Source: an uncultured Bacteroidota bacterium (GTDB taxonomy: Bacteria; Bacteroidota; Bacteroidia; AKYH767-A; 2013-40CM-41-45). From it: 55,467 nt of DNA. Positions 22,222-29,195 of the stretch are shown piece by piece. Every line of letters starts with the position of its first letter. Position 1 is the first letter of the stretch. The position numbers were made by a program, and so were the translations under genes. The stretch lies in NCBI GenBank assembly GCA_937871435.1, contig CALMQM010000124.1, forward strand, positions 1-55,467. The letters are read 5' to 3'. The notes under the pieces are model-generated. The model made no database searches. It saw only the letters and a program-made list of their open reading frames with translations, and had not been told where the DNA came from.

Positions 22222-24645
22222 TTATATTTTTATTTTAATTCCAAGCATAAAATTCGCCCCGGCTTGAGGGAAATAATTATTGAAAGTAGAAAGACTTCCG
22301 CCATAAATATAACTGTATGTATATCCATTGGATTGATATTCTCGGTCAAAAATATTGTAAGCAGCTGCGGTGAAAATTAATTCTGAAAATAATTTGGGAT
22401 GAAATGTAAACGAGAATCGAAAATCATTTAGCAGATATGCATCCAGCTTTCTTTTTGTATTCATTGTATTATCCAGAAATTGCTGACTGACATATTTCCC
22501 TGTAAATTCCAGATCCATATTTTTTAGCGGTGACCAGAGAAGAATACCCGACGCGATGCAATTCGGAGAAAAAGAGATGTCTGTATTTTCATACGAATTT
22601 TTTTGCTGTGTGTAATCATCGTAGTTGTCGATGTATTCTTCGAATCGGCGGATTTTATTTTTACTAAATGTGATATTACCTGAAAAATTTACTTTGCTGC
22701 TCACATTCCAGCCGGCTTCCAGTTCAATTCCTTCACGGTAACTGTCGGCTACATTCTGTCTGGTGTATTCACCGACATCATTAATTTCTCCTGTCAGAAT
22801 AAGCTGACTTGAGTACGACATTCTGTAGAAGTTGGCTGCACAAAAGAATTTTTTTCTGCTGTAACGATAACCTGCTTCGATGTCCACCATCGATTCCGGA
22901 GTGGGTCTGCTGTCTGGAGATGAATTGACATAATCGTCGCGAACCGGTTCTTTGTGAGCTGCTGCAATAGAGGCGTATACAAATTGATGCTCGTTCAATT
23001 GCCACGAAAATCCTGCCTTCGGATTAAAAAATACAGAGCGTGTTTCCTGTGGCAAGTTTTTGCCTTCCCTTGAATAACCTATGAAGTGATAATTCACCGT
23101 TCTGCCCTGCAGATCACCAAATAAATAAATGCCATTTTTAAAACTGTATCCGATTTTAATAAATGCGCTGGCTTCCTTCTTGATCGCATCATCATCGTAA
23201 TACTGAAGTTTCCCATTGGGAATGGAAGCATCCTTCGACCAGATTACTTCACCAAAATGTCCACCATCGTATTCATTCGCGGAAATTCCGATAATTCCGT
23301 TGAACTGTTCTTTTGCATAGTGTAAGTCAGCGGTGATTCCATAAAAATCATTGTTGAGCCAACGTCTGCGAATGAAGTCGGATTCCTCAATGGTATCTGT
23401 TGATGTAATGACTACAGGCAAACCATACTTTGAAAGATTGTCACCCTGACTGTATTCTTCATAATATCCTTTCCCCTTTGTGTAATGCAAAGCGGTGTTG
23501 AGTGTGAAGAAAGGGTTTAATGAAGTAGCATACAGTAGTTGATAATAATCTTGTTGGTAATTGTCGGTTTGGTTTTCATAATAATGTACCGAACCGTTGT
23601 TGTCAAAATACATTCCTGCCGGATTGAATTTCCGGTTGGAAACAAGAGAGTCCTCCGGCACTCCGTACCATGCCTGGTATGTTTTCTCGTTTCCTGAAAG
23701 TAAAATTGCACGAAGAGAACTCTTCTTGCCATAGTATCCGCCGGAAAGAAAGAGTGAATGCAAATCACTCCTGGCCCTGTCGATATACCCGTCAGAATTG
23801 ATTTTTGAAAAGCGTCCATCCACGGAAAATTTGTTCTCAATCCAACCTGTACCGAAAGCTAAAGTGTTTTTCCAGGTGTTGAAAGAACCAACAGAGGAAT
23901 TTATTTCAGCGAAAGCTTTTGACTGAAGAGTAGAAGATAAAATGTTCACACTGGCACCGAATGCTCCGGCACCATTGGTTGATGTTCCGGCTCCTCGTTG
24001 AATCTGTATGTTTTCACAGGAGGAAGCTATATCCGGAAGATCCACCCAGTAAACCTGATGGGATTCCGCATCGTTTACAGGAATTCCGTTAAGTGTGACA
24101 TTGATCCGGCTTGGATCACTGCCGCGAATGTGCAAACCGGTGTAACCAACACCGTTTCCTGCATCGGAATTGACTACAAGAGAGGGAGTCAATTGAAGCA
24201 AATAAGGAAGATCTGTTCCAAGATTTCTTTTTTCCAGCTCTTCTTTGTTTTGTGTAGAGTAAGCAATTCCGTTTCGTGTGTCCATCCTGGTTGAAGTGAT
24301 GGTCACTTCTTCGGATAGATAATTCTTTACCACCAATTCAATGACCAGATTATTTGTCGGTGCATTTACGTGAATGGTTTTTGGTTCATAAGAAATATGC
24401 CTGAGGGAAATATCTGCATCAGGAGTTTTAATATCAGAGAACGAAAACTTTCCTGCATCATCGCTGAGAACAGAAAGAAAACTATGTTCCAGATGCACCG
24501 CAACTCCGGCGATGGGTTGTTTTGTTTCGGCATTCACAACAACTCCTTGGACGGATTGCTGGGCGGAAACAGGTTGGACGAGAATAATCATCAGGAATAT
24601 CAGGATTTTCCCAATGGTCGTGAATGGTCGCTGAAAGAATCGCAT
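22222..24645 (-). CDS. TonB-dependent receptor under TPP riboswitch
   Basis: Outer-membrane active transporter of 807 residues. It has a signal peptide (1-28), an N-terminal carboxypeptidase-D-like domain (about 30-105, GVVVNAETKQPIAGVAVHLE), a plug domain (about 130-235, GLHIRGSDPSRINVTLNGIP, QRGAGTSTNGAGAFG) and a long beta barrel ending YIYGGSLSTFNNYFPQAGAN and MLGIKIKI. A TPP riboswitch lies directly upstream, so the cargo is probably thiamin, thiamin phosphate or a precursor. TonB, ExbB and ExbD are elsewhere. No SusD-like partner is encoded beside it. The start is set by the signal peptide. Confidence 0.92.
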   Translation of the reverse strand: MRFFQRPFTTIGKILIFLMIILVQPVSAQQSVQGVVVNAETKQPIAGVAVHLEHSFLSVLSDDAGKFSFSDIKTPDADISLRHISYEPKTIHVNAPTNNLVIELVVKNYLSEEVTITSTRMDTRNGIAYSTQNKEELEKRNLGTDLPYLLQLTPSLVVNSDAGNGVGYTGLHIRGSDPSRINVTLNGIPVNDAESHQVYWVDLPDIASSCENIQIQRGAGTSTNGAGAFGASVNILSSTLQSKAFAEINSSVGSFNTWKNTLAFGTGWIENKFSVDGRFSKINSDGYIDRARSDLHSLFLSGGYYGKKSSLRAILLSGNEKTYQAWYGVPEDSLVSNRKFNPAGMYFDNNGSVHYYENQTDNYQQDYYQLLYATSLNPFFTLNTALHYTKGKGYYEEYSQGDNLSKYGLPVVITSTDTIEESDFIRRRWLNNDFYGITADLHYAKEQFNGIIGISANEYDGGHFGEVIWSKDASIPNGKLQYYDDDAIKKEASAFIKIGYSFKNGIYLFGDLQGRTVNYHFIGYSREGKNLPQETRSVFFNPKAGFSWQLNEHQFVYASIAAAHKEPVRDDYVNSSPDSRPTPESMVDIEAGYRYSRKKFFCAANFYRMSYSSQLILTGEINDVGEYTRQNVADSYREGIELEAGWNVSSKVNFSGNITFSKNKIRRFEEYIDNYDDYTQQKNSYENTDISFSPNCIASGILLWSPLKNMDLEFTGKYVSQQFLDNTMNTKRKLDAYLLNDFRFSFTFHPKLFSELIFTAAAYNIFDREYQSNGYTYSYIYGGSLSTFNNYFPQAGANFMLGIKIKI

Positions 24646-24670
24646 GGCAATTCATTTAAGGTTAAACAAG

Positions 24671-24696
24671 GCATGCACTTCCGGGTGAATGCATGC
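24671..24696 (-). promoter_or_regulatory. Hairpin between riboswitch and receptor start
   Basis: A perfect seven-base-pair stem GCATGCA / TGCATGC (24671-24677 and 24690-24696) with a 12-base loop lies between the aptamer and the ATG at 24645. It has no U-run, so translational control is more likely than termination. Candidate expression platform. Confidence 0.55.
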
Positions 24697-24707
24697 ATTA
24701 AATAGTG

Positions 24708-24790
24708 TTTACCTCGTTCCCTTCGCAGGCATTACCCTGAACAGGTTCGATGGGTATAATCTCAGCCCCGTAGAACAGGAGCACCCCAGT
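24708..24790 (-). ncRNA. TPP riboswitch aptamer (THI element)
   Basis: Read on the minus strand the order of conserved pieces is GGGGTGC (24787-24781), CTGAGA (24765-24760), ACCC, ACCTGTTCAGGGTAATGCC (24746-24728) and TGCGAAGGGAA (24727-24717). This is the thiamin pyrophosphate sensor. It begins just downstream of a predicted promoter and sits 63 bases before the receptor gene's ATG. The terminal P1 stem is only partly matched. Confidence 0.95.
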
Positions 24791-24799
24791 TTGATGGAA

Positions 24800-24827
24800 C
24801 AAAAGTATAAATTTATTTCAGCAACAA
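24800..24827 (-). promoter_or_regulatory. Promoter of the thiamin riboswitch transcript
   Basis: On the minus strand TTG at 24827-24825, a 17-base spacer, and TACTTTTG at 24807-24800. Transcription would begin near 24793, right at the aptamer's edge. Confidence 0.65.
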
Positions 24828-24918: not shown

Positions 24919-25440
24919 ATGAAAAAAATAATTTTATCCCTCGTCTGTTTTTTGTTTTTTTCAGCAGCACATGCGCAACTGTATGTGTTCGGAGTAGGAG
25001 CTCGCGCAGGTAAATTCAATACCGGTATCTCAATCAAATCTTTTTTTAATGCCGACAATGCTACCGGACTGTTGCTTGACGGATATTACACGAATATTGC
25101 TTCCAAAGGCTACACGATAAAAGCAATACTTATTAAACAGATTCCTTTCAAAATGCCTATCGTGCAATTGCCTTTGGACTTTATCTATGGCGGAGGTGTA
25201 CATGGAGCGTATTTCCCGTATAATAAACAAGGTTATTACAAAAGACGTAACGGTGAACCGGTTTACTATGAGAAAAGTGTCATGAGTGCCGGTGTGGATG
25301 CAACAATACAGATTGAATATCAGGTGAAGAAAATTGCTCCTTTCACAATTGGTATAGATGTGGTTCCATACTATGAGTTTTACAATCCCGGACCGGAATG
25401 GATTGATTTCGGAGTCACGGTACGCTACGTTTTCCGCTGA
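24919..25440 (+). CDS. Small secreted outer-membrane-like protein
   Basis: A 173-residue protein with a signal peptide (about 1-19, FFSAAHAQ). The mature part alternates hydrophobic and polar residues and ends in VTVRYVFR, with aromatic residues throughout (YGGGVHGAYFPY, VVPYYEFYNPGPEW), as in small outer-membrane beta barrels of Bacteroidota. It is divergent from the riboswitch and its last bases overlap the 3' end of the NadR-like gene on the other strand (25425-25440). Function unknown. Confidence 0.72.
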   Translation: MKKIILSLVCFLFFSAAHAQLYVFGVGARAGKFNTGISIKSFFNADNATGLLLDGYYTNIASKGYTIKAILIKQIPFKMPIVQLPLDFIYGGGVHGAYFPYNKQGYYKRRNGEPVYYEKSVMSAGVDATIQIEYQVKKIAPFTIGIDVVPYYEFYNPGPEWIDFGVTVRYVFR

Positions 25441-25964
25441 GTTCTTAACAGTTTGTCTACCTCTTTTATTGCTGAACGAATTCTGATTTCTCCCTGCCCC
25501 TTGATAATTGCATAGTTCAGTTTTCTTTCTTCTAATTCCCGCTGGTACCAGTCGAAAAAATATTGTCGTCGCAAGGGATTTTCTCTTACAGGATCTTCTA
25601 CAAATGGAAGGTCCGGGCTTAGCAGGAGATACAAATCATAGGGATAATCAGCAATAAGGTTTTCTATTTCTTCTGATTTTTCGTGATACACATCCTGCAT
25701 CCAGACTGAAGCAATAATCGGATCCGTGTCTGAAAAAAGAATGTGTTCAGTTTGAATCAGTGCAGTTTCCTCCAACTTACATTGTTCACGGATCGTAAAT
25801 AGTATATCTTCTTTTGTATACGGACGATTCAAAGCGGAAATGTAATCTCTCGAATATTCCGGCACCCATAAAGTCCGGTAATATTTTGCCAGCGCATCAC
25901 ACAAAGTTGTTTTACCTGCAGACTCAGGACCAATGACTGCTACACGAAGGATATCTTTTTTCAT
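25425..25964 (-). CDS. NadR-like P-loop kinase
   Basis: From Met 25964 it has 179 residues and a Walker A motif RVAVIGPESAGKTTLCDALA at about residues 6-25. WVPEYSRDY follows, then SDTDPIIASVWM, a DLYLLLSPDLPFVEDPVREN segment, and a C-terminal YAIIKGQGEIR. This fits the ribosylnicotinamide-kinase domain of NadR, which phosphorylates nicotinamide riboside. Its ATG overlaps the PnuC stop (ATGA at 25964-25961), so the two genes are coupled. Phosphorylating the imported vitamin would trap it. Substrate could also be thiamin given the neighbourhood. Confidence 0.82.
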   Translation of the reverse strand: MKKDILRVAVIGPESAGKTTLCDALAKYYRTLWVPEYSRDYISALNRPYTKEDILFTIREQCKLEETALIQTEHILFSDTDPIIASVWMQDVYHEKSEEIENLIADYPYDLYLLLSPDLPFVEDPVRENPLRRQYFFDWYQRELEERKLNYAIIKGQGEIRIRSAIKEVDKLLRTQRKT

Positions 25965-26566
25965 GAAACTGTTCGCATAAGTTTTTTCCATTCCATATAA
26001 CCGGAAATTGCCATCCAAAAAAATATGCAATACAGCAACGAAGTAAGTGGCAAATGTTTTATGTAGAAAAGCGGAATGTAGATGGCATTCGCCAGCATCC
26101 ACAATCCCCAGTTTTCAATTTTCTTTTTGGCAACCATCCATTGTCCGATCACGCTGGCGGAAGTGAGAGCAGAATCAAGCCAGGGCAGGGCGGCATCAGT
26201 AAATTTCATGAAGAAATATCCAAGTGTAACTGATCCCGCGACGAAAAGTAAGATACAGTTTTTCCATTCTTTTATCGTAAGTTTTTCCGGAGAAAATTCT
26301 TCTTCTGTATTATCCTTTTTATTCCATTGCATCCATCCATATACCAACAAAACAACATAGATGCACTGCAACAGAGTGTCAGCATATAATCTTACCGAAG
26401 GAGAAAAGAATAACCATGCATACAAAAGAACATTTACAATACCGATCGGGAAACACCAGACTGAATGTTTAACAGTAAGCCATACACCAAGAATTCCGGT
26501 TAACATGGCAGCTATTTCCAACAATGAAGTTGATTGCCCTAATAGAGTAGTAAATTCCTCATTCAT
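25961..26566 (-). CDS. pnuC: PnuC-family vitamin transporter
   Basis: From Met 26566 it has 201 residues with about seven membrane segments. Family signatures are LTVKHSVWCFPIGIVNVLLY and ENWGLWMLANAIYIPLFYI, the WxxW pair that lines the substrate site. PnuC-type carriers move nicotinamide riboside, thiamin or riboflavin by facilitated diffusion, driven by phosphorylation inside. The partner kinase is fused in the operon downstream. Nearby TPP control of a receptor makes thiamin (PnuT) a real option, but this operon has no riboswitch of its own. Confidence 0.87.
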   Translation of the reverse strand: MNEEFTTLLGQSTSLLEIAAMLTGILGVWLTVKHSVWCFPIGIVNVLLYAWLFFSPSVRLYADTLLQCIYVVLLVYGWMQWNKKDNTEEEFSPEKLTIKEWKNCILLFVAGSVTLGYFFMKFTDAALPWLDSALTSASVIGQWMVAKKKIENWGLWMLANAIYIPLFYIKHLPLTSLLYCIFFWMAISGYMEWKKLMRTVS

Positions 26567-26712
26567 CCTGCAAATATGCAAAACAGCCATTATCCGCGAC
26601 CTTAATTGGATTATAATAAGAGCCTGAATGAGTAAAAAATGGCATTTGTTGAAAAAAAATGGATGTATACAGGTTATTCGGTCATTGTACTGTCAGGAAA
26701 TTTCGAAAACAC

Positions 26713-26806: not shown

Positions 26807-27730
26807 ATGGCATTACTTAGCAAGTTCATCGATTCTTTGAATGTGCGTCTTTATCGCACTGCTTTCAGGGAAGTTGTCCATCCTGTTAAATTAAATGGCA
26901 GTTTCGACAAACACAATGTGATCATTCATCTAAACAGAGGGAACTTATCGGTCGGAGCAGAAGACGAAATGATGGCACAGGATAGTTTTTATTTCTTTCC
27001 TGCAGGTCAGCCCATTTTTGTCAAGCATGCGATGGGCAATCATCACGATCTCGGTCCGGATGGATTCATCGACGATGAACACCGTTCTCGTTTTCTTCGG
27101 ACTATTAGCGGACTGGAAGATTTCAGTAAGCTGAAAGAAGTGTTTACCATTCTGGCATTCGATGTTACTTTGTATGATGCCATTCCTTTTTTCGAAGTAC
27201 TTGGTATGCCTCCGTTCGCGCTTACGAAAGACGAAGAGTTTGGTTTTCTGGTTAAGCACATCGCTCTGGAAAACGAACAAAGTAAACTCGGAAGAGATAA
27301 GTTGATCCGGAACTACATGGAAGAAATTATGATTCACATGTGTCGCTACATTGAATCACAGGAGAAATTTAAAAAGTATGTAGACAAACTGGAATTTTTA
27401 TCTGACCGTCGATTGGTTGACATCGTCAAATACATTCAGGAGAATCTGGAAAAAGATTTGTCGAACAAAACTATTGCAAATATTGCATATGTGTCTGAAG
27501 ATTATGTCGGACAGTTTTTCAAATCATTGACAGGAAAAAATCTGCAGGATTATATCGAAAATCAACGTCTGGATCGCGCGATGTTTTTACTACGCACCCA
27601 GCCTGATAATATCCAGGAAATCGCTCATCGGGTTGGATTCAAGGACCCTGCTTATTTCAGCAGGAGATTTAAAATGAAATTTGGTTCCAATGCAAATGCT
27701 GTCAGACAAAATAAGAGTCAGCTGGTGTAA
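26807..27730 (+). CDS. AraC-family transcriptional regulator
   Basis: A 307-residue protein. The N-terminal 200 residues are an unassigned sensor-like region (FREVVHPVKLNGSFDKHNVIIH). The C-terminal 100 residues are an AraC/XylS DNA-binding domain with two helix-turn-helix units: LSNKTIANIAYVSEDYVGQ and then IQEIAHRVGFKDPAYFSRRF. No membrane helix or response-regulator domain. It has a good promoter of its own. Target genes cannot be read here, although no divergent neighbour lies beside it. Confidence 0.85.
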   Translation: MALLSKFIDSLNVRLYRTAFREVVHPVKLNGSFDKHNVIIHLNRGNLSVGAEDEMMAQDSFYFFPAGQPIFVKHAMGNHHDLGPDGFIDDEHRSRFLRTISGLEDFSKLKEVFTILAFDVTLYDAIPFFEVLGMPPFALTKDEEFGFLVKHIALENEQSKLGRDKLIRNYMEEIMIHMCRYIESQEKFKKYVDKLEFLSDRRLVDIVKYIQENLEKDLSNKTIANIAYVSEDYVGQFFKSLTGKNLQDYIENQRLDRAMFLLRTQPDNIQEIAHRVGFKDPAYFSRRFKMKFGSNANAVRQNKSQLV

Positions 27731-27775: not shown

Positions 27776-28522
27776 TTATTTCAGTATGCCATGCATGGCT
27801 GCTGCCATTTCGCCTATTAACGCAGGATCTTTTTCAATGGCGTTACCAATGACGATTACATCCGCACCTGCCTGACAAATGTCAATCGCTTTTTCAGGAG
27901 TACGAATACCGCCACCAACGATGACAGGTGAACTCACTGATTTTTTAACTGAAGCAATCATGGAAGGACGTACAGGAAATCGTGCACCGCTACCTGCATC
28001 CATGTACATAAGTTTTAATCCCAGCATCTCGCCTGCCATAGCTGTACAAACAGCGATATCATCCTTATCGTGGGGAATGGGAAAAGTATTGCTCATGTAA
28101 CTGACGGAAGTAGGAGCTCCGCTATCGATCAGCATGTATCCGGTTGGAAGAATTTCCAGTCCGCTTTTTTTGAGCATAGGCGCAGAGATCACATGTCTGC
28201 CAATCAGCATTTCAGCATTTCTGCCACTGATAAGTGAAAGAAAAAGAATCGCGTCGGCTTTATCAGAGATCTGCATCGTATTTCCCGGAAATAAAATCAC
28301 CGGAATATTGCTGTTTGCTTTCAGTACTTCTACGCATGCATCCAGATCTCCGTGAGTGAGAATACTACTTCCTACAAAAAAATAATCAGCGCCGGCGTCA
28401 AGTGCATTATGGGCGAGTTTTTCGCAATCAGCTAAGGATGTTTTGTCTGGATCAACAAGCACCGCAAGAGATTTTTTACGTCCTTCACAGCCGGCGAGAA
28501 TACGATTGTAAATCTGGTTCAT
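27776..28522 (-). CDS. Geranylgeranylglyceryl phosphate synthase family
   Basis: A 248-residue TIM barrel of the GGGPS/PcrB family: it joins a polyprenyl diphosphate to glycerol 1-phosphate. Motifs include LAVLVDPDKTSL, ADYFFVGSSILTHGD, PVILFPGN, PTGYMLIDSGAPTSVSYMS, and MYMDAGSGARFPVR with VIVGGGIRTPEKA and VIVIGNAIEKD. The bacterial group makes head- or tail-linked glycerol ether lipids of unclear use. Adjacent to a phosphopantetheinyl transferase on the same strand, 40 bases apart. Confidence 0.9.
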   Translation of the reverse strand: MNQIYNRILAGCEGRKKSLAVLVDPDKTSLADCEKLAHNALDAGADYFFVGSSILTHGDLDACVEVLKANSNIPVILFPGNTMQISDKADAILFLSLISGRNAEMLIGRHVISAPMLKKSGLEILPTGYMLIDSGAPTSVSYMSNTFPIPHDKDDIAVCTAMAGEMLGLKLMYMDAGSGARFPVRPSMIASVKKSVSSPVIVGGGIRTPEKAIDICQAGADVIVIGNAIEKDPALIGEMAAAMHGILK

Positions 28523-28562
28523 GAGCTAAATGTTCGAAACGAAGATACAAAGAAGCATTGAA

Positions 28563-29195
28563 TCATTCACCGGTGGCATAGGCCAGCATTCGGTTTTCTG
28601 TTCTTTCAAAATGAATCAGAAAAGTTCGTTCAAAATCAGGCATGCGGATCGTTGCTTCGGTGGTTCCTTTGTCGGCACATTTAAAAGGAGCTACATACAA
28701 ATGCCCGCGAAAATCAACATTGCCTTTTCCGTAAATTTTATAAAGGACTTCTTTCGCGCCCCATAGAATGTGTAAATGCTGACGTCTGTTTTTTTCATCA
28801 ATATAATTTGCTTCCTCGTCGTTGACAAATTTGTGGGCAATCTTTTCAATCTGCGGACGAATGGTTTCAAGATCCAGTCCGACATAGGGCAGAGGAGAGA
28901 ACAAAACCGAAACATAATCCTGCGTGTGTGATATAGACAACGAAAGCATATTGTCGAGATATGGTTTTCCGTTCTCGTCATACTGAATCACCAATGAAGA
29001 TGTTGGATGTAAGTTATGAAGCAGAGCGCGTACGCTCAGGAACTCTTTTTTTCTTAATTCGCTTTTAAAGCTTTGAACCATCCTGATTTCGGATTCCCTC
29101 AGCCCTGCCAGTTGCTCCAGCTCTTCCATGGATTCGGAGCTTTTCCATATACCCAGTTGAAGCTGATGGGTTTTGTGATGATAAGTCAGCGGCAT
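28563..29195 (-). CDS. 4'-phosphopantetheinyl transferase family
   Basis: Transfers the phosphopantetheine arm of CoA to acyl or peptidyl carrier proteins. The 210-residue protein has LSISHTQDYVSVLFS, the catalytic VGLDLETI, a Mg-binding region and WGAKEVLYKIYGKG, the WxxKE motif. It is the Sfp-like two-part type, larger than AcpS. No carrier protein or synthase lies beside it. It could serve fatty-acid synthesis or secondary pathways. Confidence 0.88.
   Translation of the reverse strand: MPLTYHHKTHQLQLGIWKSSESMEELEQLAGLRESEIRMVQSFKSELRKKEFLSVRALLHNLHPTSSLVIQYDENGKPYLDNMLSLSISHTQDYVSVLFSPLPYVGLDLETIRPQIEKIAHKFVNDEEANYIDEKNRRQHLHILWGAKEVLYKIYGKGNVDFRGHLYVAPFKCADKGTTEATIRMPDFERTFLIHFERTENRMLAYATGE

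Follow-up and report, generated by a model that had tools for sequence, protein, structure and literature searches.

We analyzed a window of 55,467 nt (positions 1 to 55,467 of contig CALMQM010000124.1, assembly GCA_937871435.1) from an uncultured Bacteroidota bacterium of the class Bacteroidia, in which a thiamin pyrophosphate (TPP) riboswitch is located directly in front of a gene for a TonB-dependent receptor and downstream of a pnuC gene and a gene for a stand-alone P-loop kinase. This region is probably a vitamin B1 scavenging locus of a thiamin auxotroph, where the kinase would produce thiamin monophosphate (TMP), ThiL would complete the synthesis of TPP, and TPP would lower the amount of the receptor. 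Slightly less firmly, but still as the likely explanation, we propose that the stand-alone NadR-type kinase of the AAA_28 family is the missing thiamin kinase of most Bacteroidia that lack a thiamin pyrophosphokinase (TPK), that a vitamin B3 pair of transporter and kinase has been re-purposed for vitamin B1 with ThiL replacing TPK, and that its TPP riboswitches, placed at the very 5' end of the transcript, act through a hairpin whose C-rich loop captures the 5' GGGG strand of the aptamer. In the proposed pathway, the receptor would bring thiamin through the outer membrane and the PnuC-family facilitator would pass it through the inner membrane, whereupon the kinase would phosphorylate it to TMP and thus trap it. 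ThiL would convert TMP to TPP, which would lower receptor production by binding to the riboswitch with which the receptor mRNA begins. Switching would consist in a competition between the aptamer and a hairpin downstream of it that carries a C-rich loop able to pair with the 5' GGGG strand of the aptamer. What receptor, transporter, and kinase act on, in which direction the riboswitch regulates, and how it switches are all predictions here; the thiamin kinase reaction in particular we infer from a hole in the pathway, the exclusion of TPK, and the gene order.

Read along the minus strand, the locus comprises in turn pnuC (25,961–26,590, assigned by family searches), the kinase gene (25,425–25,964, with the ATG at 25,964 and the stop at 25,425; 179 aa), a 173-aa gene on the opposite strand, a promoter box, the TPP aptamer (24,701–24,798), a hairpin, and the receptor gene (22,222–24,645; 807 aa). 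The aptamer matched the full Rfam model RF00059 (positions 1–105) with 63.8 bits, above the gathering score of 54.3 (E value 2.9e-10). Its core motifs are intact, and no other RF00059 match at an E value of 0.001 occurs in the genome (4.36 Mb, completeness rated at 100%). One base ahead of the Rfam model start lies the box TACTTTTG (24,807–24,800), which fits what we take to be the consensus of the Bacteroidota −7 box, TAnnTTTG. A box of the form TAnnTT[TGC]G ending −4 to +12 nt from the aptamer start was present in 25 of the 30 riboswitches that are not attached to thiC (in one of these, L006, the downstream gene is cut off by the contig end) and in four of the six thiC riboswitches; the same placement occurred in 2.2% of base-shuffled upstream sequences, which is an approximate control. 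Thus, the mRNAs should begin at the aptamer edge. A scan for sigma-70 type promoters and terminators was set aside, with 19 promoter-like sites compared to 26.1 in shuffled sequences. Behind the aptamer, an inner hairpin with CCC in its loop (24,671–24,696) is predicted by folding, enclosed by an outer helix GGUAAACA/UGUUUAACC (24,713–24,706/24,668–24,660) beside the 3' strand of the closing helix P1. The receptor start codon is located 55 bases downstream of the Rfam model end. The initial annotation had placed promoter, riboswitch, hairpin, and TonB receptor in one line with transcription starting at the aptamer edge, which agrees with the Rfam score, the box and its conserved position, the folding, and the protein domains. 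It had also put the receptor 63 bases past the aptamer; the close placement holds, whereas the figure depends on the aptamer end that is taken. Its statement that pnuC and the kinase gene lack a riboswitch was correct as well, since the Rfam scan of the window revealed none belonging to either. Both genes lie on the same strand as the aptamer, at least 0.6 kb upstream of it; the pnuC stop and the kinase start overlap by four bases (ATGA), and the two genes probably have their own transcript.

The window receptor matched the Plug and CarboxypepD_reg domains; the barrel model was not reported at an E value of 0.001 and was found in a homologous receptor (L117). Among the best 30 TPP riboswitches from 61 related genomes, 23 directly precede a homologous receptor gene, six are located upstream of thiC on the same strand, and one is cut by the contig end. 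Three relatives with TPK and without the kinase (G051, G054, and G057) have a TPP match directly in front of the receptor gene, whereby the matches of G051 and G057 fall under the Rfam cut-off. In G051, pnuC adjoins this receptor-riboswitch locus. The receptor thus keeps its link to thiamin independently of the kinase.

No match to TPK (PF04263), ThiC (PF01964), or ThiE (TIGR00693) was found in the own genome; as a control for TPK, PF04263 matched in 7 of 14 control genomes. The genome does encode ThiL (319 bits), away from the locus. Among the 61 relatives, 60 have a ThiL above its cut-off, and the same applies to the 49 class genomes of a wider phylum sample; ThiE scored above cut-off in exactly the nine relatives with ThiC. 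An organism with ThiL and without ThiE needs another source of TMP, and the bacterium seems to be a thiamin auxotroph. TPP riboswitches can also control transporters of thiamin precursors, and it might be that the receptor imports the pyrimidine or thiazole moiety instead of thiamin. However, the genome contains no ThiE match to join such precursors. The lack of ThiC, ThiE, and TPK matches makes a joining of imported precursors unlikely and intact thiamin the likely cargo, so that we regard precursor import as very improbable; what would speak for it is YjbQ, which can stand in for ThiE according to PMC5613172 and lay outside the search. TPP-linked uptake of a thiamin compound, as suggested in the initial annotation, is the best reading of these data.

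The distribution of the kinase was compared in two samples, the 61 relatives (own genome included) and the phylum sample of 198 genomes, 49 of them from the class; three genomes are shared. In the relatives, a hit to the window kinase at an E value of 0.001 was sufficient, with no scan of the domains one by one, and the best matches lie in frames of 169–287 aa, except for G001 (392 aa, a PnuC fusion). For the phylum sample, strong kinase-profile matches were counted, except those in frames of NadR length (about 300–410 aa) or of 730–800 aa; G130, described below, was included. The combined 107 class genomes comprise 79 with a kinase apart from NadR, 16 with TPK, none with both, and 12 with neither, nine of which have ThiC and ThiE. 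In the relatives, the kinase occurs in 46 genomes, none of which has ThiC, TPK, or ThiE above cut-off (two of them, G047 and G058, show weak matches to the thiE model with 33.1 and 22.5 bits against a cut-off of 145.1). The 15 relatives without the kinase include nine with ThiC and ThiE, three with TPK, and three with none of these. The 49 class genomes of the phylum sample split into 36 with the kinase apart from NadR and DUF4301 fusions and 13 with TPK, with both and neither at zero. Families f3, f5, f26, and f28 hold both states, and this in the expected direction. Outside the class (149 genomes: 83 with TPK, 53 with ThiC, 134 with either, 15 with neither), a strong kinase-profile match, NadR included, was found in 8 of the 15 with neither, compared to none of the 134 with either; at least two of these eight matches are two-domain NadR proteins (L105 and L106). 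In G130 (L113, 2166–3659), the kinase is fused to an aldose-1-epimerase domain (498 aa), and a TPP riboswitch precedes the receptor gene in the locus (L133).

Gene order points in the same direction. The pnuC gene adjoins the kinase gene in 28 of 30 loci examined from the 46 relatives. Further kinase loci contain it as well, 30 of 40 in the phylum sample and 53 of 80 taken from named or metagenomic genomes, the 80 including some short loci and six repeats. Of the 45 genomes with the kinase in the phylum sample, 40 supplied loci with flanks of 5 kb; G225, G085, G232, and G241 were excluded (G241 was covered by 4 kb), and G000 is the window itself. In G001 (L049, 877–2052), a single open frame of 392 codons encodes both PnuC and the kinase, apparently a natural fusion. 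Of the 46 relatives, 20 have a TPP match no more than 5 kb from the kinase gene, in all cases downstream and in 18 on the same strand; the matches of G027, a contig-end fragment, G031, and G049 are below the Rfam cut-off. The arrangement recurs in Mongoliibacter ruber and Mongoliitalea lutea, whose riboswitches score 69.4 and 66.9 bits. In the phylum sample, a receptor gene was located within 5 kb of the kinase gene in 14 of 40 loci, and at a lax threshold three of six loci searched gave weak TPP matches (37.3–41.3 bits) right in front of the receptor gene. Gene order and co-occurrence across the class would tie PnuC and the kinase to thiamin rather than to nicotinamide riboside, as far as sequence comparison can tell, and they strengthen the earlier proposal that the PnuC and NadR-like genes complete import and trapping.

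The transporter matched NMN_transporter (PF04973) with 181.7 bits against a threshold of 27.3; an attempt to read its substrate from an alignment of PnuC residues to 4qtn gave no help. The kinase matched PF13521. Against the NadR model, it scored 95.8 bits (cut-off 341) and covered only positions 164–320 of 325, which is the kinase half. NadR was taken as a protein with adenylyltransferase and kinase domains, and the window kinase carries the latter only. Of ten comparison proteins, eight (L100–L106 and L109) matched both NadR halves at 163–241 bits, which is also under the cut-off, so that coverage and not the cut-off is the test for NadR; L107 and L108 matched only the kinase part and a little beyond it. 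The earlier label NadR-like is thus right for the kinase half but not for an identity with NadR. The AlphaFold model of the kinase has a pLDDT of 95.5, and its best PDB matches are NadR kinase domains (Z 23.2 to 20.8, rmsd 2.3–3.1 Å), followed by thymidylate kinases as the next structural family (Z 16.9). Position 88 is Trp in 55 of 64 kinases and Tyr in nine, compared to Tyr in 11 comparison rows labelled NadR, a label that was given by frame length in tree and residue comparison and was borne out for eight of the ten proteins scanned (L110 was not scanned). Five genomes (G055, G244, G204, G130, and G240) carry a two-domain NadR as a separate gene alongside the kinase, and in four of the five PnuC adjoins that NadR. 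It seems that the principle known from PnuC and NadR, which combines a transporter and a kinase for nicotinamide riboside, has been carried over to thiamin.

The working mode of TPP riboswitches in Bacteroidetes is called uncertain in PMC5613172. In an alignment of nine riboswitches from the own family, the hairpin within the outer helix behind the aptamer comprises 14 predicted pairs, eight of them with at least one compensatory change; several of the 14 are also broken, the covariation term is only −0.47, and the nine were drawn from 11 sequences (G002 and G003b were omitted after inspection of their folds), which favors the result. RNAalifold yielded no structure for the 11 own-family tails and a consensus for six tails. 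Folding of the whole leader was not distinctive (z −1.19), and the region after the aptamer alone gave z −2.25. Complementarity of the post-aptamer stretch to the 5' P1/P2 strand of the aptamer (GGGGUGC) exceeded dinucleotide shuffles in 12 of 29 non-thiC riboswitches at p ≤ 0.05, with a combined p of 2.6e-10 that is too small because the sequences are related. Four control strands gave p-values of 0.07 to 0.79, and two of six thiC riboswitches likewise reached p 0.05. This duplex test replaced a count of CCCC after the aptamer (14 of 29 compared to 3.3 expected), of which the window sequence has only CCC. In several own-family members the C-run is located in the hairpin loop, suggesting a competition of this loop with the aptamer over the GGGG strand. 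In 17 of 29 non-thiC riboswitches, no more than 31 bases separate the aptamer end from the first open start codon (starts were assigned automatically), which would favor control of translation over termination.

A number of observations weigh against the proposed reading. As for the distribution, the exclusion among the relatives (Fisher p 2.6e-10) is uncorrected for kinship, as are all co-occurrence p-values. Three relatives, all of family f4 (G033, which is of high quality, G036, and G038), have no kinase, TPK, or ThiE, two of the three being less than 90% complete. A perfect exclusion of the kinase from ThiC genomes holds for the 61 relatives and is broken in the phylum sample, where G062, G146, and G240 have ThiC together with the kinase, so that salvage can coexist with synthesis. 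Seven of the 13 class genomes with TPK, which represent one Flavobacterium-like genus, also carry the kinase in a frame of 730–800 aa, which is a DUF4301 fusion in the one that was scanned (L145, 4873–7086, of G081). Nor is there a TPP riboswitch near every kinase gene. Only 4 of 40 phylum-sample loci have one at the Rfam cut-off and only 2 of 11 named loci searched, and four Pedobacter loci possess pnuC, kinase, and receptor genes and no riboswitch at the Rfam cut-off. The pathway gap was drawn without a search for ThiK-type kinases or YjbQ. Moreover, the three TPK relatives G051, G054, and G057 also keep ThiL without ThiE, so that an orphan ThiL is no proof that the kinase makes TMP, and G001 has the kinase and no ThiL above cut-off. 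The latter genome, together with the exclusion of TPK by the kinase, would fit a kinase that converts thiamin to TPP in one step and replaces TPK completely. However, ThiL is present above cut-off in nearly all relatives and in the class genomes of the phylum sample, as given above, and kinases of related folds transfer a single phosphate; we therefore hold a one-step pyrophosphokinase to be improbable.

The identity of transporter and kinase is a further point. PnuC passes the NCBIfam cut-off for nicotinamide riboside transporters (94.3 against 42.45 bits), the catalytic motifs of the kinase equal those of NadR, with only a few positions separating the two, and in the tree the kinases do not fully form one clade apart from NadR, as four class NadR rows stand in an unresolved fork with them. 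Transporter and kinase might thus serve the uptake and phosphorylation of nicotinamide riboside and be located near a thiamin receptor by chance, as the Pfam and NCBIfam names and the closest solved relatives, NadR and PnuC, would suggest. Against this stand the kinase and TPK never occurring together in the 107 class genomes (DUF4301 fusions set aside), the absence of the kinase from all nine relatives with ThiC and ThiE, the downstream position of the riboswitch in all 20 close cases, and the separate two-domain NadR, mostly with a PnuC of its own, in the five genomes that have both. We therefore judge a role in nicotinamide riboside salvage unlikely and retain thiamin as the probable substrate. 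With regard to the riboswitch, P1 forms only one of five standard pairs in the Rfam register (another register is possible) where most relatives form three to five, a weakness that was overlooked when the aptamer was first, and correctly, recognized, and for the window sequence alone, the anti-aptamer pairing falls short of significance (p 0.40). Both would be expected of a decaying riboswitch with a constitutive receptor. The score over the full model and the intact core motifs, as well as a promoter box and hairpin common to the relatives, argue against such a decay, which we consider improbable.

Known systems cover parts of this arrangement. ThiK (YcfN) of enterobacteria converts thiamin to TMP, which is then processed by ThiL, and belongs to an aminoglycoside phosphotransferase-like fold family. 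The window kinase is proposed to catalyze the same reaction and is set apart by this description of the fold. PnuT was reportedly described by Jaehme and colleagues in 2018 as a thiamin facilitator of the PnuC family that works by facilitated diffusion; by that description, the window transporter resembles it in family. Facilitated thiamin transport would need phosphorylation for trapping. With NadR and PnuC, the locus shares the kinase fold, the catalytic motifs, and the pairing with a PnuC transporter, whereas the window kinase differs from NadR by its missing adenylyltransferase part, by the residue at position 88, which is mostly Trp in such kinases instead of Tyr, and by its distribution among genomes. 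The OMthi, pnuT, and tnr3 genes of Bacteroides (BT2390 and BT2396-2397; Costliow and Degnan, 2017, PMC5613172) likewise combine a TPP riboswitch, a TonB-dependent transporter, a PnuC-family transporter, and a thiamin-phosphorylating enzyme, and the same text describes the OMthi/pnuT system as widespread in gut Bacteroidetes. There, however, phosphorylation is the task of Tnr3 and thiamin synthesis is present in most genomes as well, whereas here no match to TPK or biosynthesis was found and a NadR-type kinase is located beside pnuC, upstream of the riboswitch.

Two surveys (PMC10881298 and PMC12442306) mention two Flavobacteriales clusters in which a riboswitch lies near omr1, as well as omr1 and pnuC transcripts in Bacteroidetes, and the first of them, a coastal survey, lists Bacteroidota clusters without the described B1 synthesis and transport systems. 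In the phylum sample, ThiC was found in only 14 of the 49 class genomes, so that an external supply of thiamin is probably needed by many of these bacteria. Riboswitch, receptor (predicted thiamin receptor of the OMthi/Omr1 type), and PnuT-type transporter (predicted thiamin facilitator) are of the known OMthi/pnuT import kind, and the predicted thiamin kinase is the new, testable part; in the open-licence literature, nothing was found that names a NadR-like or AAA_28 protein as a thiamin kinase. If the proposal is true, a family-wide thiamin kinase supplies such genomes with the step that follows uptake, transporter and kinase lose a misleading vitamin B3 label, and a single-gene test becomes available of how these bacteria get TPP.

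Further features were noted in the neighborhood. The 173-aa protein between kinase and riboswitch (24,919–25,440, plus strand) matched no known family in family searches; homologues occur in 13 of 150 kinase loci, four of which are repeats of the same genomes, and in several own-family loci the gene sits on the opposite strand at the same place between kinase and riboswitch. The 150-locus count covers several families and includes six repeats and many short loci. A gene for an AraC-type regulator (26,807–27,730) is divergent from pnuC, with homologues in 21 of the 150 loci, and its product is a possible second regulator of pnuC and the kinase gene. PcrB-like and phosphopantetheinyl transferase-like genes (27,776–29,195) have homologues near pnuC and the kinase gene in 25 and 19 of the 150 loci, respectively, a neighborhood that is conserved without an obvious reason. 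In the Flavobacterium-like genomes, the kinase in the long frame adjoins pnuC and is often located upstream of a receptor gene; DUF4301 may have a thiamin-related role. Fluoride riboswitches were found about 5 kb from the kinase gene in Mongoliibacter and Mongoliitalea (L172, 905–972, and L236, 767–833). Several of the kinase loci from Flavobacterium-like and related genomes contain matches to the Flavo-1 RNA, and in L131 (5724–5793) such a match lies about 90 bases ahead of a weak TPP match.

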